From a virus, in IMG/VR virus record IMGVR_UViG_3300046170_000095, positions 1 through 40,995 of that record: a DNA stretch of 40,995 bases; one strand, given 5' to 3'. This document shows, in pieces, positions 3,572-40,971 of this stretch. The position numbers were made by a program, and so were the translations under genes. Position 1 is the first letter of the stretch, and each line of letters opens with the position of its first letter. The notes under the pieces were generated by a model. The model did no database searches, was not told the DNA's origin, and saw only the letters and a program-made list of their open reading frames with translations.

Positions 3572-4315
3572 ATGGCATTCGATATCACACAAGTATCAGG
3601 TCAAGGTACAGAGAATCTGGACTCAGGTTCCGCCTTGCCTATCATCCGTATCCTACAGGATATGTCCCCCCAACTGAAAAAACAAAAAGAAGAATATATA
3701 GAGGGGGCAGAAGCTGGAGACTTGTTCTTCAACAAGACTCAGGATATTATCCCCAAGACCGTTGAGGTTATCCCTTGCTATACACAATCCGTGTATACTG
3801 AGTGGGTTCCTCGTGCCAAAGGTGGCGGTCTTGTAGCTACCCATCCGCTAACAATCGTGTCCCATCCCAGTTATGAGAAGGGTCGTGAGCGTAGCTACGA
3901 TGAGTGGCTCGGAGAGAATGAGCTTAAGTACACAACCTACTTCTTTGTTCTTATGAACTTAGATGGTAAGTGGGAACAAGCTGTCATTCCATTCACAATC
4001 TCACAGCTCCGTGTATCACGTAAGCTAGTGAGCGACATCAACCGATTCCGTTATGAAAGTGACGAACTTAAAGGCATTGCTCCTCCGCTGTATGCCCAGA
4101 AATGGGAACTTAGTACGGTGTTGGAAACAAATAAAAACGGTGACGATTATTACAACTTCTCGTTCACTAACAGCACTCCGTTGGACTTGGAAGCTGACGA
4201 AGAACTGCTCAGTATGGCTGCTGATACCTATTCTGCTGCTACTGATACTCCTCTTCTCCAGACTGAGTCATCTCCTCAACTGGTTGACTCCCAAGCTGCG
4301 GATACTCCGTACTAA
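3572..4315 (+). CDS. conserved phage replication-region protein, 247 aa
   Basis: The protein belongs to a type often met near phage replication genes: an N-terminal L-P-I-I-R-I-L-Q-D-M-S-P-Q-L segment, a G-A-E-A-G-D-L-F turn, then a beta-rich core with V-I-P-C-Y-T-Q-S-V-Y-T-E-W-V-P-R. The family has no assigned function that I can state with certainty; a single-stranded-DNA-binding role would suit its place but is not shown by any motif. The C-terminus is acidic and rich in Ser, Thr and Asp, a feature shared with many SSBs. The start follows the 8-base repeat without a Shine-Dalgarno sequence. A strong terminator follows the stop by 25 bases. Confidence 0.8.
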   Translation: MAFDITQVSGQGTENLDSGSALPIIRILQDMSPQLKKQKEEYIEGAEAGDLFFNKTQDIIPKTVEVIPCYTQSVYTEWVPRAKGGGLVATHPLTIVSHPSYEKGRERSYDEWLGENELKYTTYFFVLMNLDGKWEQAVIPFTISQLRVSRKLVSDINRFRYESDELKGIAPPLYAQKWELSTVLETNKNGDDYYNFSFTNSTPLDLEADEELLSMAADTYSAATDTPLLQTESSPQLVDSQAADTPY

Positions 4316-4340
4316 ATTAAAAGACCTGTAAATCTTTTGA

Positions 4341-4372
4341 CCTTGGGGGAACACCACCCCCAAGGTTTTTTT
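4341..4372 (+). terminator. intrinsic terminator
   Basis: CCTTGGGGG pairs perfectly with CCCCCAAGG around a seven-base loop and is followed at once by seven T residues. This is a textbook Rho-independent terminator for the + strand. It ends four bases before the ATG of the primase gene, so the T-run occupies the place where a ribosome-binding site would be. It probably ends most transcripts of the PolA block, leaving limited read-through into the primase and helicases. Confidence 0.93.
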
Positions 4373-4376
4373 ACCC

Positions 4377-5918
4377 ATGATTCCATTACTTGACATAGCA
4401 TACAAATTTCACGACCTGTTCACCTGCAACACAGAAGTGTACGGTCAAACATCCCTGACTGGTAAAGTCCGTGACCGTGACGGCAAAGCAGATTCCAAGT
4501 CTTTCCTAGTCAAAGAAGCACTGACTCCTGAAGTATGGGAGTCACACCTTAAAGGTGAGCGCATCATTGGCTGCACCCCATTGTTTGATGAAGACAAAGT
4601 ACGATGGGGCTCACTGGACATCGACGTGTATCAAGACGCAGATACAATCGAAGACCTTAAGAAAGCTATCACAGAAGCTGAGCTACCCTTTGTCCTCTGC
4701 CGTTCCAAGTCAGGCGGTGCTCACGTGTACCTCTTCATGTCCGAACCTACTCTAGCCAAGGACATGATTGATAAGCTCAAATCTTTCAGTGCATTCTTTG
4801 GTCAGGGTGTGTGTGAGATATACCCGAAGCAACCAAAGATTGGCAACCGCAAGGACAACAGCAAGTACGGCAATTGGATTAACATGCCGTACAGTGGCAA
4901 CCCTACCCTACAGTACGCCATCAATGACAAGGGTGACGCCCTTGACCCCATGCAATTCCTTGAGTACGCACAGGCACGAAGCCTAAGCAAGGAACAATTT
5001 GAAAAGCTTGCTGTCCCACAGACAACAGAAGAGTTGTTACCTGAAGGACCACCCTGCCTTAACTACATATTCGAGAAGCGTACAAAGGAAAGCGAGAACC
5101 GTAACGTCACCCTGTCCAACGTAGCTGTATACCTTAAGAAAGCTGAGCCGTCTGACTGGAAGTCACGACTGCACAAGTTCAACAAGATGTTCAGTGACCC
5201 ACTACCAGAACGTGAGGTTGATGCAATCATTACATCCTACGAACGTAAGGACTACAAGTACCAGTGTGCACAGGAACCACTGTGTCGGTACTGTGACGCC
5301 AAGCTATGTGGTCAGCGCAGGCACGGCATTGGACAAGAAGAGTTCTTACCTAACAACCGTTCATTGATACAGCTCAAGAGTGACCCACCTCTGTGGTTCT
5401 TAACCCTTGACCACGAAGAGATACACCTGACTACCGAAGAGTTTGATAACTTTAACAAGTTCAACCAACGTGTAATGGAGAAGCTGCTGTTTAAATATCC
5501 ACCTGTTAAACAGGAGGATTGGATTAAACAACAGAACCTACTACTCAAGAACTGTATACGCATTGACGTACCCTTTGAGATGACACCTGTTGGTCAGTTC
5601 GTTGAGTACCTGTCTTCCTTCTGCTCTGCTGCTAGTGAAGACATCACTCACATCAGGCATGGTGCTGTCAAACAACCCAATGGTTTCTATGTGTTCAGGA
5701 TGGTAGACCTCAAGGACTACTTGAATCAACAACGATTCTCTGAGCTGGCAGACAACAAGTTAATCTCTGTAATGAAACGAACACTCAAGGCTGACACAAC
5801 GAGAGTGTGTGCTGGGGGTGCAGGCAACCAGATACGTTGCTGGCAAATCCACAAGGATAAGCTACACCTCGACCCCACCCAACCCATGCCTAACCTAGAA
5901 GACAACGATGAGTACTAA
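4377..5918 (+). CDS. archaeo-eukaryotic-type primase (AEP) with Cys cluster
   Basis: This 513-aa protein looks like a primase or primase-polymerase of the AEP superfamily, of the kind seen in TOTE conflict systems and phages. Motif I is L80-D-I-D83-V-Y (the metal-binding DxD). Motif II is S110-K-S-G-G-A-H116-V-Y-L-F. A following G-N-W-I-N-M-P-Y segment at about 165-172 fits the conserved strand after motif III. Past residue 225 lies a PriCT-like helical part, with cysteines at about 227, 297, 303, 306 and 311 suggesting a metal or Fe-S site. It would lay down primers for the neighbouring PolA; there is no DnaG or DnaB-type protein in the window. The gene overlaps the next start by 11 bases. 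The start is placed directly behind a terminator. Confidence 0.85.
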   Translation: MIPLLDIAYKFHDLFTCNTEVYGQTSLTGKVRDRDGKADSKSFLVKEALTPEVWESHLKGERIIGCTPLFDEDKVRWGSLDIDVYQDADTIEDLKKAITEAELPFVLCRSKSGGAHVYLFMSEPTLAKDMIDKLKSFSAFFGQGVCEIYPKQPKIGNRKDNSKYGNWINMPYSGNPTLQYAINDKGDALDPMQFLEYAQARSLSKEQFEKLAVPQTTEELLPEGPPCLNYIFEKRTKESENRNVTLSNVAVYLKKAEPSDWKSRLHKFNKMFSDPLPEREVDAIITSYERKDYKYQCAQEPLCRYCDAKLCGQRRHGIGQEEFLPNNRSLIQLKSDPPLWFLTLDHEEIHLTTEEFDNFNKFNQRVMEKLLFKYPPVKQEDWIKQQNLLLKNCIRIDVPFEMTPVGQFVEYLSSFCSAASEDITHIRHGAVKQPNGFYVFRMVDLKDYLNQQRFSELADNKLISVMKRTLKADTTRVCAGGAGNQIRCWQIHKDKLHLDPTQPMPNLEDNDEY

Positions 5919-37626: not shown

Positions 37627-37851
37627 ATGGCAACTGTAACTATCCGCTACGGTCTGACTAACTCAGTCACCCGTGACTTCGACGACGATGCTACTATCAA
37701 CGACTTGCTCGGTGATAGCGCAGTCCGTGCAGCCCTGTCTGCACCAGAGAACGTCCGTGCTGTAAGCAACGGTCAAACCCTTGACGGTCACAACTACGTG
37801 ACTGGCTACAGCTCCATCACCTTGGAGCAGCAAGCATCCAGCAAGGCTTAA
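37627..37851 (+). CDS. ubiquitin-like beta-grasp protein
   Basis: The 74-residue protein has the beta-grasp order: strand V-T-I-R-Y-G, strand S-V-T-R-D-F, helix T-I-N-D-L-L-G-D-S-A-V-R-A-A-L, strand N-V-R-A-V-S-N-G-Q-T-L, and final strand S-S-I-T-L-E-Q-Q. This is the size and shape of ThiS, of PRTRC protein C and of ubiquitin. Followed by E2-like, E1-like and JAMM genes, it is best read as the tag of a conjugation system. It ends S-S-K-A, with no di-glycine; either the tail is trimmed, or this group uses another C-terminus, or the tag is bound and not conjugated. The family call leans strongly on neighbours. Leader TATATC before ATG. Confidence 0.75.
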   Translation: MATVTIRYGLTNSVTRDFDDDATINDLLGDSAVRAALSAPENVRAVSNGQTLDGHNYVTGYSSITLEQQASSKA

Positions 37852-37909: not shown

Positions 37910-38725
37910 ATGTCAAACACACCAGAAATTACAAGCCAAGAATACATCTTGGATGCAGACGGTAGGTTCCACCGTCGTACAACCATCACCACCCCAATCA
38001 TTAATGCAGACAAACTCCTGTCTGAGATTAAAGATGACGGTGTTCTCATTCTTCAACCGTACTATCAAACAGTATCAACTGACGGTGTAGATGACGGCTC
38101 AATAGTAGAACATCCTACACGTTTCCTGTCGTACAGCACCACACCTCACTTGGTCAATGTAGTAAGCAAGTTGGAGTACTTCCCATTCAAAGGCGCACAC
38201 CTTGAAGAATCCGATGAAACTGACACATACCGCATGTTCATCCCATCATCAGGAGGTGGCATCCCAGACCACGTAACAAGGCACGGTGCGTTGAAGTGGG
38301 AACCATACTACCTCGGCTTCGACATGTACACCTACGTTCAATACAACTTCGAGCAAAAGACTGCTGGCAGTATGTACATCTTCTTGGTCAGGGACAACAA
38401 AGCATACTTTCCTGACATACCCAACGTCTTTGAAGACGGTAGGCTCTGCGCTGGTAATGACTACGAAGCTAGATTCAACAAGCGGAGTATGGATTCCATG
38501 TTAGATTTGCACAGGCAAAACCACACACTCCTGTACAGATCACCATGCAACAACGACCTTCGTAACCTTAGCAACGAGAAACACTTCGTAATCTTTGACA
38601 GCACTGGTCAAACCAAAAGCCCACGTAGCGGGTTCTCTAGTAGCTCAGGATACAGCAGGTTCTTCAAACCCAGCACTAATATGTTTATTAATACGTTCGC
38701 AGAACGAGCACAATCAAACCTATGA
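37910..38725 (+). CDS. E2-like ubiquitin-conjugating protein (PRTRC-B type)
   Basis: The 271-aa protein contains Y-I-F-L-V-R-D-N-K-A-Y-F-P-D-I-P-N-V-F-E-D-G-R-L-C180-A-G-N. The run strand, then F/L-P-x-x-P-N-V-(F/Y)-x-D-G-x-x-C-x-G, is the core of bacterial E2-like folds known from PRTRC protein B, where the Cys is the candidate thioester residue. Cys180 would carry the tag from the E1-like partner. The first 150 residues are mainly beta and have an internal T-P-H-L-V-N-V-V-S-K helix; the last 60 are Ser-rich and flexible. The stop overlaps the 111-aa gene (ATGA). The fold is inferred from this motif and the neighbours; I put moderate weight on it. Confidence 0.68.
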   Translation: MSNTPEITSQEYILDADGRFHRRTTITTPIINADKLLSEIKDDGVLILQPYYQTVSTDGVDDGSIVEHPTRFLSYSTTPHLVNVVSKLEYFPFKGAHLEESDETDTYRMFIPSSGGGIPDHVTRHGALKWEPYYLGFDMYTYVQYNFEQKTAGSMYIFLVRDNKAYFPDIPNVFEDGRLCAGNDYEARFNKRSMDSMLDLHRQNHTLLYRSPCNNDLRNLSNEKHFVIFDSTGQTKSPRSGFSSSSGYSRFFKPSTNMFINTFAERAQSNL

Positions 38726-39057
38726 GTAACATACACAGCTATTTCGTAAACGCTGAAGCAGTGTATGGTCACATGCACACTGCTAGGAACATTCGTACTA
38801 TTCTTCAAGACTCTCCTCGACAACGTGCTCACATAACTGACGGTGTTGAGAATGAACAAGCACGCCTTGAAGACACCTACGAGATTCAACCTGACCTAAC
38901 TCCAGAGCAACTGCGTGTGCTCTTCAAGATTATCAACAAACAATTACCTGATTGTGGTCGTAAGCGTGGTGCAATCCTCCGTTACATCAGAGCTTACATG
39001 CCAGAACCCGAACCCAACTACGGTTCAAAAATCCTACAACGTCTTAAGAATCTATGA
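38722..39057 (+). CDS. unknown component of the ubiquitin-like module, 111 aa
   Basis: The protein is predicted mostly helical, with L-T-P-E-Q-L-R-V-L-F-K-I-I-N-K-Q-L-P and a basic R-K-R-G-A-I-L-R-Y-I-R-A-Y segment, a Pro/Glu linker, and a short last helix. It has a single Cys, so it is not a RING or HECT-like ligase. It overlaps both the E2-like and E1-like genes by four bases, so it is made with them and is probably a partner, adaptor or substrate. No known PRTRC or Bil component matches it by eye. Confidence 0.7.
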   Translation: MSNIHSYFVNAEAVYGHMHTARNIRTILQDSPRQRAHITDGVENEQARLEDTYEIQPDLTPEQLRVLFKIINKQLPDCGRKRGAILRYIRAYMPEPEPNYGSKILQRLKNL

Positions 39058-39779
39058 AACCAAACCTAAAAGCAGTAATCATCGGTGCAGGTGGCGTCAC
39101 AAGCTACATGCTACCCGCCCTCCGCAACAGCTTCGACTTGCACGCTACCCTCATTGACGGTGACGTGCTTGAGAAGAAGAACCTTGACCGTCAGTTGTTT
39201 CGCAACAACATGGTTGGTCAGCACAAGTGCGTTGCTCTCATGAAACAATACAACTTCCGCAAGGAAGAAGGTCAGGCTATCCGCTCATACTTTGACATGG
39301 AGATGCTAGACACCGAGTACAAGTACTGGTTCAACCAAGCAGACGTTATCATCTGCGCTGTTGACAACCACCCAGCTCGCCTTGCTGCTATCGAAGCAGC
39401 CAAGCAGACACGCACACCAATCGTAATCTGCGCTAACGAGTATCACACAAGCCAAGCGTACATCTACTGCCCTGTCTTTGCTGACGAGTTCGAGATTCCA
39501 ATGATGGACCCACTCAATCGTTACCCAGAGATTGCAACTGACAAGTCAGGCAGCCCAATGAGTTGTCAAGGTGAAGCCCTTGAGTCTGAACCACAGCTTG
39601 CCATTGCCAATCAAGTAGCAGCATCCTTTGCTAACTACCTGCTTTGGACTTGGTTCGGTATGCCACGTCAAGCAGAAGATGCTGTCAAGTATATGCCTGT
39701 TGAATTCCAATCTACATTCTCACGAATGCAAACCCTAACCATCGAAGACATTGAAAAACTGTACAAACAATCAGCCTAG
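39054..39779 (+). CDS. ThiF/E1-like adenylyltransferase
   Basis: The 241-aa protein is an E1-type enzyme. It has the nucleotide loop I-I-G11-A-G-G14-V-T, then L-I-D35-G-D37-V-L-E-K-K-N43-L-D-R46-Q-L-F, then C-A-V-D104-N-H-P-A-R. These Asp, Asn and Arg bind ATP and Mg and activate the C-terminus of a ubiquitin-like protein. M-S-C171-Q-G is a candidate thioester Cys, as in the P-S-C-A of PRTRC ThiF. No CxxC zinc pair is seen. It is short compared with MoeB/ThiF but complete in the catalytic part. It overlaps the 111-aa gene before it (ATGA) and the JAMM frame after it. Confidence 0.9.
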   Translation: MKPNLKAVIIGAGGVTSYMLPALRNSFDLHATLIDGDVLEKKNLDRQLFRNNMVGQHKCVALMKQYNFRKEEGQAIRSYFDMEMLDTEYKYWFNQADVIICAVDNHPARLAAIEAAKQTRTPIVICANEYHTSQAYIYCPVFADEFEIPMMDPLNRYPEIATDKSGSPMSCQGEALESEPQLAIANQVAASFANYLLWTWFGMPRQAEDAVKYMPVEFQSTFSRMQTLTIEDIEKLYKQSA

Positions 39780-40971
39780 CCAAGTATATCACGACGGCTT
39801 CGTGTACGAAGAGGACATCAACGACCTCTTCGTTACATACCGACAAGTCGCTGAGCTACCCGAACAAAAGGACTTATCTCCTGAGTGGCTGGGTAAGCCC
39901 ATCCCACTTGACATGTGGAAAGAAATCCTTGCGTTCATGAAGCAGTCACAAGACAAGTTCAAGTCAGAAGCACTTGCCTTCTTGTACTACGACGTAAGCA
40001 ACGACGACAACCCTTGGTCTTACTGGGTTCCGCCACAGGAAACAGCAGGCATGACTGTCAAGTCCTTGCCTGATGACTCACTCTGGCGTGAGCAACGCAG
40101 CAAGTATCCAGACACACAGTTCGGTACAGTGCACCACCACTGCACAAGCTCAGCCTTCCAGTCTGGTACTGACGAAGCTGACGAGGTCAACCGTGAGGGT
40201 CTGCACTTTACCATCGGTAAGCTCAACGACGTTGACAACCTTGACGTTCACTTCCGACTATCAATCGGTGGTCACTGCGTAGAGATGGACGCTGGCACGT
40301 ACATCGAGCAAGCTGAGTCACCATTCAAAGCAACCTGCCGTGTCACTGACAGTGTACAAGACCAAGTACGCAACCACCTGCACAAGATAGACATTGCTAC
40401 CTTGCCTGACAAATGGGAAGACATGGACTTCACAGTACAGATGGACAACGTGCACAAGAAAACATACTCCGTTACATCATACTCAGGTTACAGTAAGCAT
40501 AAGACTATGCACCAAGGCACACTTGGTTATGCCTACGGCTATGACCCAGACGATAAGTACTTTAAAAAAAACACAAACGAAGCAGAAGACATGGCTCCCA
40601 TAGAGCAGCTAAGTCCAAGCGAAAATCTCGCTGAAGATTTTATCACAGCAATTATGACTGACTATAGATATGAAGAAATCCTTGAACAATATTATATCCA
40701 CACGAACAACAGTATTGATAAGACTGCGTTACTTACAGGCACTCTTGTTGATACGCAAATCTGCAACGACTTGTGTAACATGTTTAGAGATAACGAGTTT
40801 ATGTATACTGCTGAGTATAAGAATGTTGAAACAACGGTTGATGAGTTTCTTAAAGAATCTTCGCAGTTTGGTCTTGCCTACACGCAGAAAGACCTTATCA
40901 ATGGACTCCAATCGCTTAACAATGCAGAAGGAATCGGAGTTGAATACATGGATAAGGAGAATGTTCTATGA
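39751..40971 (+). CDS. JAMM/MPN metallopeptidase (deubiquitinase-like)
   Basis: The frame holds an exact JAMM site: E73 in K-S-E-A-L-A-F-L-Y-Y-D, then H128-H-H130, seven residues, S138-G-T-D141. HxHx7SxxD plus an upstream Glu coordinates the catalytic zinc in deubiquitinases and in PRTRC protein A. W-V-P-P-Q before the motif also fits. The enzyme would remove or mature the tag. The 250 residues after the domain match nothing I know. There is no good ATG: a TTG at 39751, a GTG at 39802 or an internal ATG at 39913 are possible, or a +1 frameshift from the ThiF gene could fuse the two. The stop overlaps the next gene (ATGA). Confidence 0.88.
   Translation: MKNCTNNQPSQVYHDGFVYEEDINDLFVTYRQVAELPEQKDLSPEWLGKPIPLDMWKEILAFMKQSQDKFKSEALAFLYYDVSNDDNPWSYWVPPQETAGMTVKSLPDDSLWREQRSKYPDTQFGTVHHHCTSSAFQSGTDEADEVNREGLHFTIGKLNDVDNLDVHFRLSIGGHCVEMDAGTYIEQAESPFKATCRVTDSVQDQVRNHLHKIDIATLPDKWEDMDFTVQMDNVHKKTYSVTSYSGYSKHKTMHQGTLGYAYGYDPDDKYFKKNTNEAEDMAPIEQLSPSENLAEDFITAIMTDYRYEEILEQYYIHTNNSIDKTALLTGTLVDTQICNDLCNMFRDNEFMYTAEYKNVETTVDEFLKESSQFGLAYTQKDLINGLQSLNNAEGIGVEYMDKENVL

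Follow-up and report, generated by a model that had tools for sequence, protein, structure and literature searches.

Near one end of the window (the whole stretch of DNA analysed, 40,995 nucleotides long) lies a block of five genes, all on the + strand between positions 37627 and 40968 and arranged in the order Ubl-E2-MID-E1-JAMM, with the JAMM gene last. Most of these open reading frames share a few bases of overlap with their neighbors. The genes and the features within them are as follows.

37627..37848, + strand: Ubl, 74 aa, predicted beta-grasp protein (from the ORF, alignments and family matches of homologues)
37834..37848, + strand: conserved Ubl tail ASSKA, predicted reactive C-terminus, in which Ala replaces the usual Gly
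37910..38725, + strand: E2-like putative conjugating enzyme, 271 aa (from PF14460 matches of homologues and a model)
38447..38449, + strand: predicted catalytic cysteine C180 of the E2, in PN-x4-G-x2-C
38722..39057, + strand: MID, 111 aa
39054..39779, + strand: E1/ThiF-type activating enzyme, 241 aa (from PF00899)
39564..39566, + strand: candidate catalytic cysteine C171 of the E1
39751..40971, + strand: predicted JAMM/JAB deconjugase, 406 aa, with a TTG start (from conservation and a model)
39871..40449, + strand: JAMM/MPN+ domain, residues 41–233 (from VIA-align)
39967..39969, + strand: codon of Glu73, predicted to be catalytic
40132..40173, + strand: JAMM motif H128-x-H130-x7-S138-x-x-D141
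40606..40929, + strand: C-terminal helical domain, residues 286–393, clade-specific

The structural genes of the window (terminase, connector, capsid and tail) are on the − strand, and the cassette lies on the + strand together with the replication genes; once the ends of the window are joined, it is followed on its 3′ side by VRR-NUC and DNA polymerase A. The ends (40995 to 1) join in frame inside the VRR-NUC/Holliday-resolvase-like ORF (NHKVC-V-QRIETTT), and the joined ORF differs from its relatives at one residue. This in-frame join suggests a complete, circularly permuted phage genome, though the record is classed as being without end repeats. No tyrosine integrase was recognized in the genome; near the cassette no RNA elements scored above threshold, and promoter and terminator patterns are not more frequent across it than in shuffled sequences. 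The nearest isolates by terminase and polymerase include pelagiphages, and the contig of one relative was binned as Sneathiella. In the relative L007, an ORF immediately upstream of the Ubl gene (4202–4504) encodes a sigma-70 region-4-like protein (GEEYGITRERIRQLEAKALRKLR).

The last gene of the block encodes a protein that includes ...GTVHHHCTSSAFQSGTDEADE... and in which the earlier note had recognized a JAMM motif at 40102–40200. The motif is there: H128-x-H130, seven residues and S138-x-x-D141 occupy 40132–40173, and Glu73 precedes H128 by exactly the 55 residues that had been counted. The pattern HxH-x7-SxxD has a single match in all six frames of the window, against an average of 0.16 in composition-matched shuffled six-frame translations, and a shuffled copy of the JAMM protein matches it with a probability of 0.003; given these chance rates, the bare motif is suggestive and not conclusive by itself. 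The window protein falls below the Pfam cut-off (13.6 vs. 25 bits), and a single-sequence search with it in viral contigs found nothing because the six patterns of the query are not conserved; the family was reached via E1 and then via a five-sequence alignment. Among 61 viral-contig homologues, with identity down to 19%, E73, H128, H130, S138 and D141 are all invariant.

An AlphaFold2 model built on the homologue alignment (mean pLDDT 83; mean 64 in the loop 131–140) finds Rpn11 (3.7e-5), 8tyx (6.6e-5) and Sst2/AMSH as its best solved structures in Foldseek. With VIA-align, model residues 41–233 superimpose on Sst2/AMSH with a Z of 10.6 (144 residues, 3.5 Å), and the model aligns equally to 8tyx_B, a bacterial Ubl-deubiquitinase (Z 10.6, 140 residues, 3.5 Å). 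In the model the HxH ends strand 123–129, S138 and D141 begin helix 139–146, and E73 just precedes strand 75–80; both this secondary structure and the way in which the model superimposes on active JAMM enzymes are compatible with a predicted assembled site. Conservation and structure together are conclusive evidence for the JAMM identity proposed from the sequence, and a chance motif is ruled out by the invariance in 61 homologues and by the JAMM/MPN+ fold. Compared with the JAMM/MPN+ deubiquitinases (Rpn11, AMSH/Sst2, PfJAMM1 and 8tyx), the phage protein has the same fold (Z about 10.5) and the same E, HxH, S and D set, but it carries Cys where Pro commonly follows the HxH, and it adds an N-terminal hairpin and the clade-specific C-terminal helical domain.

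A long C-terminus of some 250 residues, with no domain that could be named, had also been described. An ordered helical domain without a name is present, but it spans about 108 residues and not 250: the JAMM fold runs to about residue 235 and is followed by a disordered linker (237–285) and then by the helical domain (286–393), where pLDDT is mostly above 90. When the model was compared by fold with viral models, other phage JAB proteins came up, and nothing that named the C-terminal domain.

The first gene of the block encodes a protein of 74 residues, the length expected of a beta-grasp Ubl, that ends ...SITLEQQASSKA. K73 is invariant in the alignment of 36 Ubls and A74 is present in more than 90%, and the 37 distinct Ubls of the window's clade all terminate exactly at Lys-Ala. 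The window protein by itself has no direct family match; its homologues match ThiS (PF02597, 2.3e-6) and several other Ubl families, and the best structural matches of the Ubl profile are to ubiquitins and ubiquitin-like proteins at non-significant E-values of 0.03–0.1. Its designation as a putative Ubl rests on these homologues, on the motif and on weak structural similarity. Efficient activation of an Ala-ended Ubl by known E1s is not expected.

The products of the second and fourth genes carry motifs of enzymes that would act on such a modifier. The E2-like protein contains P-N-V-F-x-D-G-x-x-C, with the spacing of the E2 HPN...C motif, and N172 and C180 are present in 52 of 52 homologues, with G177 in 42 of the 52. 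The protein of the window by itself gave no direct family match, and 19 of the 52 homologues match Prok-E2_D (PF14460, best 5.1e-8). Foldseek returned no confident match with the E2 model (pLDDT 88); in VIA, six of the seven best rows are E2/UEV folds, at weak Z values of 3.7–4.5. The homologues, the motif and this weak structural similarity point to a probable E2. The E1 matches ThiF (PF00899) at 4.7e-15, above the Pfam cut-off, its profile matches eukaryotic E1 catalytic subunits (5e-15), and its best NCBIfam match is PRTRC_ThiF (8.1e-14, below the cut-off). The ThiF/E1 adenylation motifs GxGG, DxDxxExxNLxRQ, K and DN are all present together with a conserved Cys, and G11, G13, G14, D35, D37, N43, R46, Q47, K58, D104, N105 and C171 are invariant in 38 sequences. 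Between these two genes, MID encodes a mostly helical protein with the motif D-x-GRKRGAILRYI and no family match. Identity of MID with PRTRC E or F found no support in profile comparison, which gave no similarity.

Proteins of these types could also serve a sulfur relay, in which the E1 would charge the Ubl as a thiocarboxylate (like ThiS, MoaD or TtuB) for sulfuration of tRNA or a cofactor and the JAMM protein would free the C-terminus, and both the membership of the E1 in the ThiF superfamily and the ThiS matches of the Ubl homologues are in keeping with this. However, the cassettes always include an E2-like protein with an invariant Cys and the canonical E2 motif, the Ubl has a Lys-Ala end where sulfur carriers have Gly-Gly, the genome is without a rhodanese, and the cassette is without a recognized sulfur-acceptor gene. 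We regard a sulfur relay as very unlikely, and prefer to read these genes as a Ubl conjugation system.

Several features bear on the conservation of the genes as a unit. First, upstream sequence of 3.6 kb or more is available for 40 of the 75 distinct JAMM loci, and in 40 of 40 of these Ubl, E2, E1 and JAMM are all present; since the search for loci went by way of JAMM or E1, and loci keeping only Ubl and E2 would be missed, this count means that JAMM and E1 do not occur without the rest and does not show the reverse. Second, the order Ubl-E2-E1-JAMM is found on one strand in 39 of the 40, with MID between E2 and E1 in the window's clade. Third, the four core genes are under purifying selection, with dN/dS values, measured for the window against its nearest relative (L008), of 0.22 for Ubl, 0.34 for E2, 0.16 for E1 and 0.24 for JAMM; in the same comparison MID, at 0.55, is above these four (0.16–0.34), and within the JAMM gene the core is at 0.14 and the C-terminal domain at 0.29. 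Finally, the four proteins show correlated pairwise distances in each of two clades (Spearman 0.45–0.80), and 0 of 200 permutations gave values as high.

The second, divergent clade (L069–L085 and L111) has the JAMM core in common with the window's clade (hhalign 9e-49). Only 3 of its 17 Ubls end exactly in Lys-Ala; the other 14 extend beyond it or end otherwise, the extended ones continuing for 1–10 residues past Lys-Ala, and four loci (L072, L080, L081 and L111) contain tandem repeats of two Ubls. Tailed and tandem Ubls are the expectation if the JAMM protein processes precursors. In this clade only, an extra conserved protein of about 180–310 aa, protein X, is encoded between E1 and JAMM. 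Protein X (e.g. L069 7012–7863) has an acidic C-terminal half and belongs to no family; in L072 (6216–7415) and L081 (6508–7356) it is separated from E1 by Cys-rich or HNH-like (homing-endonuclease-like) genes. The C-terminal domain of the JAMM protein is conserved inside the window's clade, and profile comparison found no detectable similarity between the JAMM C-termini of the two clades. A targeting module shared outside the window's clade was rejected for this domain, which has no profile match to the divergent C-termini, to protein X or to MID.

Bacteria themselves use related chemistry in Ubl-type immunity (CBASS Cap2/Cap3, Bil, Bub), and the cassette might be a means of disturbing it, through competition for host conjugates or their removal. 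Host Ubl systems act against phages (PMC10097602, PMC11153139). Similarities are seen between the E1 and the E1 portion of PADLOC E1-E2 proteins, and between the JAMM fold and that of a bacterial Ubl-deubiquitinase. Bil, Bub and CBASS share with the cassette the E1, E2 and JAB chemistry predicted for the phage proteins, and the tandem Ubl of Bil has its counterpart in the divergent clade; they are host defenses with other E1/E2 architectures, whereas the cassette is phage-borne, and the similarity is weak (E1 to PADLOC E1-E2 4.8e-10; tandem Ubl to BilA 0.0011). Stripping, moreover, would need the JAMM protein alone, but 40 of 40 loci have retained E1, E2 and Ubl as well, and purifying selection acts on these genes. 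As an account of the cassette we find counter-defense unlikely; as a purpose it is compatible with the conjugation system that we prefer.

Relatives of the cassette are present in named phages. Profile matches were obtained in Salmonella phage Arash to E2 (2.6e-6), JAMM (5.9e-18) and E1 (5.6e-26), in Vibrio phage D69 to E2 (3.3e-9) and JAMM (6.5e-20), with a weak match to E1, and in Flavobacterium phage FpV4 to JAMM and E1. In crAss001 the E1 is found by profile at 1.6e-16, and the JAMM protein weakly by profile and at 2e-21 by tblastn from FpV4. Neighboring genes in FpV4 and crAss001 resemble Ubl and E2 by position and motif. Homology of these Ubl and E2 genes to those of the window gained no support from profile comparison, and we therefore call the two cassettes related via JAB and E1, and name their presumed Ubl and E2 solely from gene context and the motifs that can be seen. 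In Bacteroides phage crAss001 the genes concerned are gp76–gp79 (L126 3977–8384), comprising ThiF, JAMM and two upstream genes in the Ubl and E2 places, and they are annotated only as thiamine biosynthesis and metalloprotease. Vibrio phage D69 (L127 2484–3275) encodes, upstream of E2 and JAMM, a three-repeat protein in which each repeat ends TGTKG, similar to the AGAKG in PRTRC C from a plasmid; this protein has the look of a PRTRC C-type ‘polyubiquitin’ precursor encoded by a phage.

The gene neighborhoods bear on a possible role in virion maturation, in which virion proteins would be tagged with the Ubl or would contain it for processing, and the JAMM protein would reach the particle by way of its C-terminal domain, one of the destinations that the earlier note had suggested (compare lambda tail proteins K and I). 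Lambda-like phages have JAB and Ubl genes in their tail-assembly clusters, where tail proteins I (Ubl) and K (JAB plus NlpC/P60) form a phage Ubl-JAB pair (PMC1779556), and in Arash the label ‘structural protein’, whose basis was not found, is given to the homologues of E1 and E2 and also to neighboring ORFs. The lambda-type clusters, however, are without E1 or E2 and stand in an unrelated gene context within the tail cluster, whereas the cassette of the window is on the strand of the replication genes, opposite to terminase, connector, capsid and tail. The cassettes of crAss001 and FpV4 also adjoin replication genes (primase, uracil-DNA glycosylase and exonuclease), and that of L070 is near a Rad52/Mgm101-type annealing gene. 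A virion role for the conjugation system thus seems improbable to us.

The nearest known kind, judged from the predicted proteins, is the PRTRC or ‘type 6d’ operon of plasmids (Iyer, Burroughs and Aravind 2006, PMC1779556), which likewise has, within a single operon, a Ubl, a JAB, a ThiF-type E1, an E2-like protein and an additional protein. The E1 profile matches PRTRC ThiF at 4e-24 and the JAB profile matches PRTRC A at 4e-10 in a test set of 11 proteins, and the E1 of the window matches an annotated plasmid PRTRC ThiF at 2e-12. The E2 homologues, and not the window protein alone, match Prok-E2_D, which we take to be the family of PRTRC B. There are also several differences. First, the phage Ubl is of another family and ends Lys-Ala, whereas the PRTRC Ubl ends in Gly. 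Second, the phage order is Ubl-E2-MID-E1-JAB and the PRTRC order C-F-B-A-ThiF. Third, the phage JAB has the C-terminal helical domain. Fourth, the carrier is a phage, here one without a recognized tyrosine integrase. The PRTRC equivalog cut-offs are missed by both the E1 (51.5 vs. 144.75 bits for PRTRC_ThiF) and the JAB (20.9 vs. 101.8 bits for PRTRC_A), and the PRTRC-type downstream His has no counterpart in the E2 alignment, in which no column has His in at least 30% of the 52 sequences. A search of the genome gave no match to PRTRC ParB, for which control genomes were positive, and none to PRTRC E and F, for which the control genomes were likewise without a match. Because the C-terminal Gly, the downstream E2 His, the equivalog scores and the ParB partner are all missing, we do not file the cassette as PRTRC.

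We consider it highly probable that the JAMM protein is the deconjugating isopeptidase of a phage-encoded Ubl conjugation system, and in relatives a precursor-processing enzyme as well. In the scheme that we infer from the catalytic residues, E1 would adenylate the C-terminal Ala74 of the Ubl, which would then be held as a thioester on C171 of E1 and handed to C180 of E2; E2 would ligate it to lysines of target proteins, perhaps with MID as an adaptor, and the zinc JAMM enzyme would take the tag off again. In the divergent clade the JAMM protein may also mature the tailed or tandem Ubl precursors. Which way the tag is relayed, what MID and the C-terminal domain do, and which proteins are tagged are likewise predictions. 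Since the phage itself has genes for Ubl, E1 and E2 immediately before that of the JAMM protein, the natural JAMM substrate is most likely the phage's own conjugates and not those of the host. The placement of the cassette is the only pointer to function: because it adjoins replication and recombination genes, we think that host or replisome proteins are what the system acts on, early in infection, or what it protects from host defense, and we favor early action on host or replication proteins, possibly in counter-defense, over a virion role. In its widest form the proposal is that a phage lineage in which no integrase is recognized carries a complete, dedicated and reversible Ubl system, with a modifier activated at Ala and a JAMM protein that matures (in the divergent clade) and removes the tag, and uses it to reprogram host or replication proteins during infection, a strategy that the related systems in crAss001 and in Flavobacterium, Vibrio and Salmonella phages would make general among phages; our confidence in this wider proposal is evenly balanced.

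Bacterial Ubl conjugation has so far been mainly a matter of host antiphage defense and of the unexplored plasmid PRTRC operons. Some phages now appear to carry their own reversible protein-tagging system into the cell, in a block kept by dozens of relatives, and if this is true, the Ala-terminated tail widens the range of ends that E1 enzymes are thought to activate. The cultured relatives (crAss001 on Bacteroides, FpV4 and Fpv1 on Flavobacterium, Arash, and Vibrio D69) make phage tagging directly testable, and with it the question of whether bacterial viruses tag host proteins, comparable to the manipulation of ubiquitin by animal viruses. No prior description of the phage cassette was found in the open-licence literature, and an earlier report elsewhere is possible.

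Two of the relatives have genes interrupted by inserts. In the uncultured crAss-like phage cr106_1 (L128 2465–3668) an HNH endonuclease gene splits the Ubl-like gene directly after its Lys-Ser-Gly codons, the presumed Ubl C-terminal tail, and this insertion has no Rfam intron match. In Flavobacterium phage Fpv1 (L131 3501–5790) the JAMM gene is split exactly at the codons of the HxH (GH|IHSH) by an endonuclease-bearing insert that matches the group I intron model RF00028 (1.9e-9; 43.4 bits, below the gathering score of 50). Group I introns prefer highly conserved sites. Unlike that of Fpv1, the JAMM gene of FpV4 is uninterrupted.
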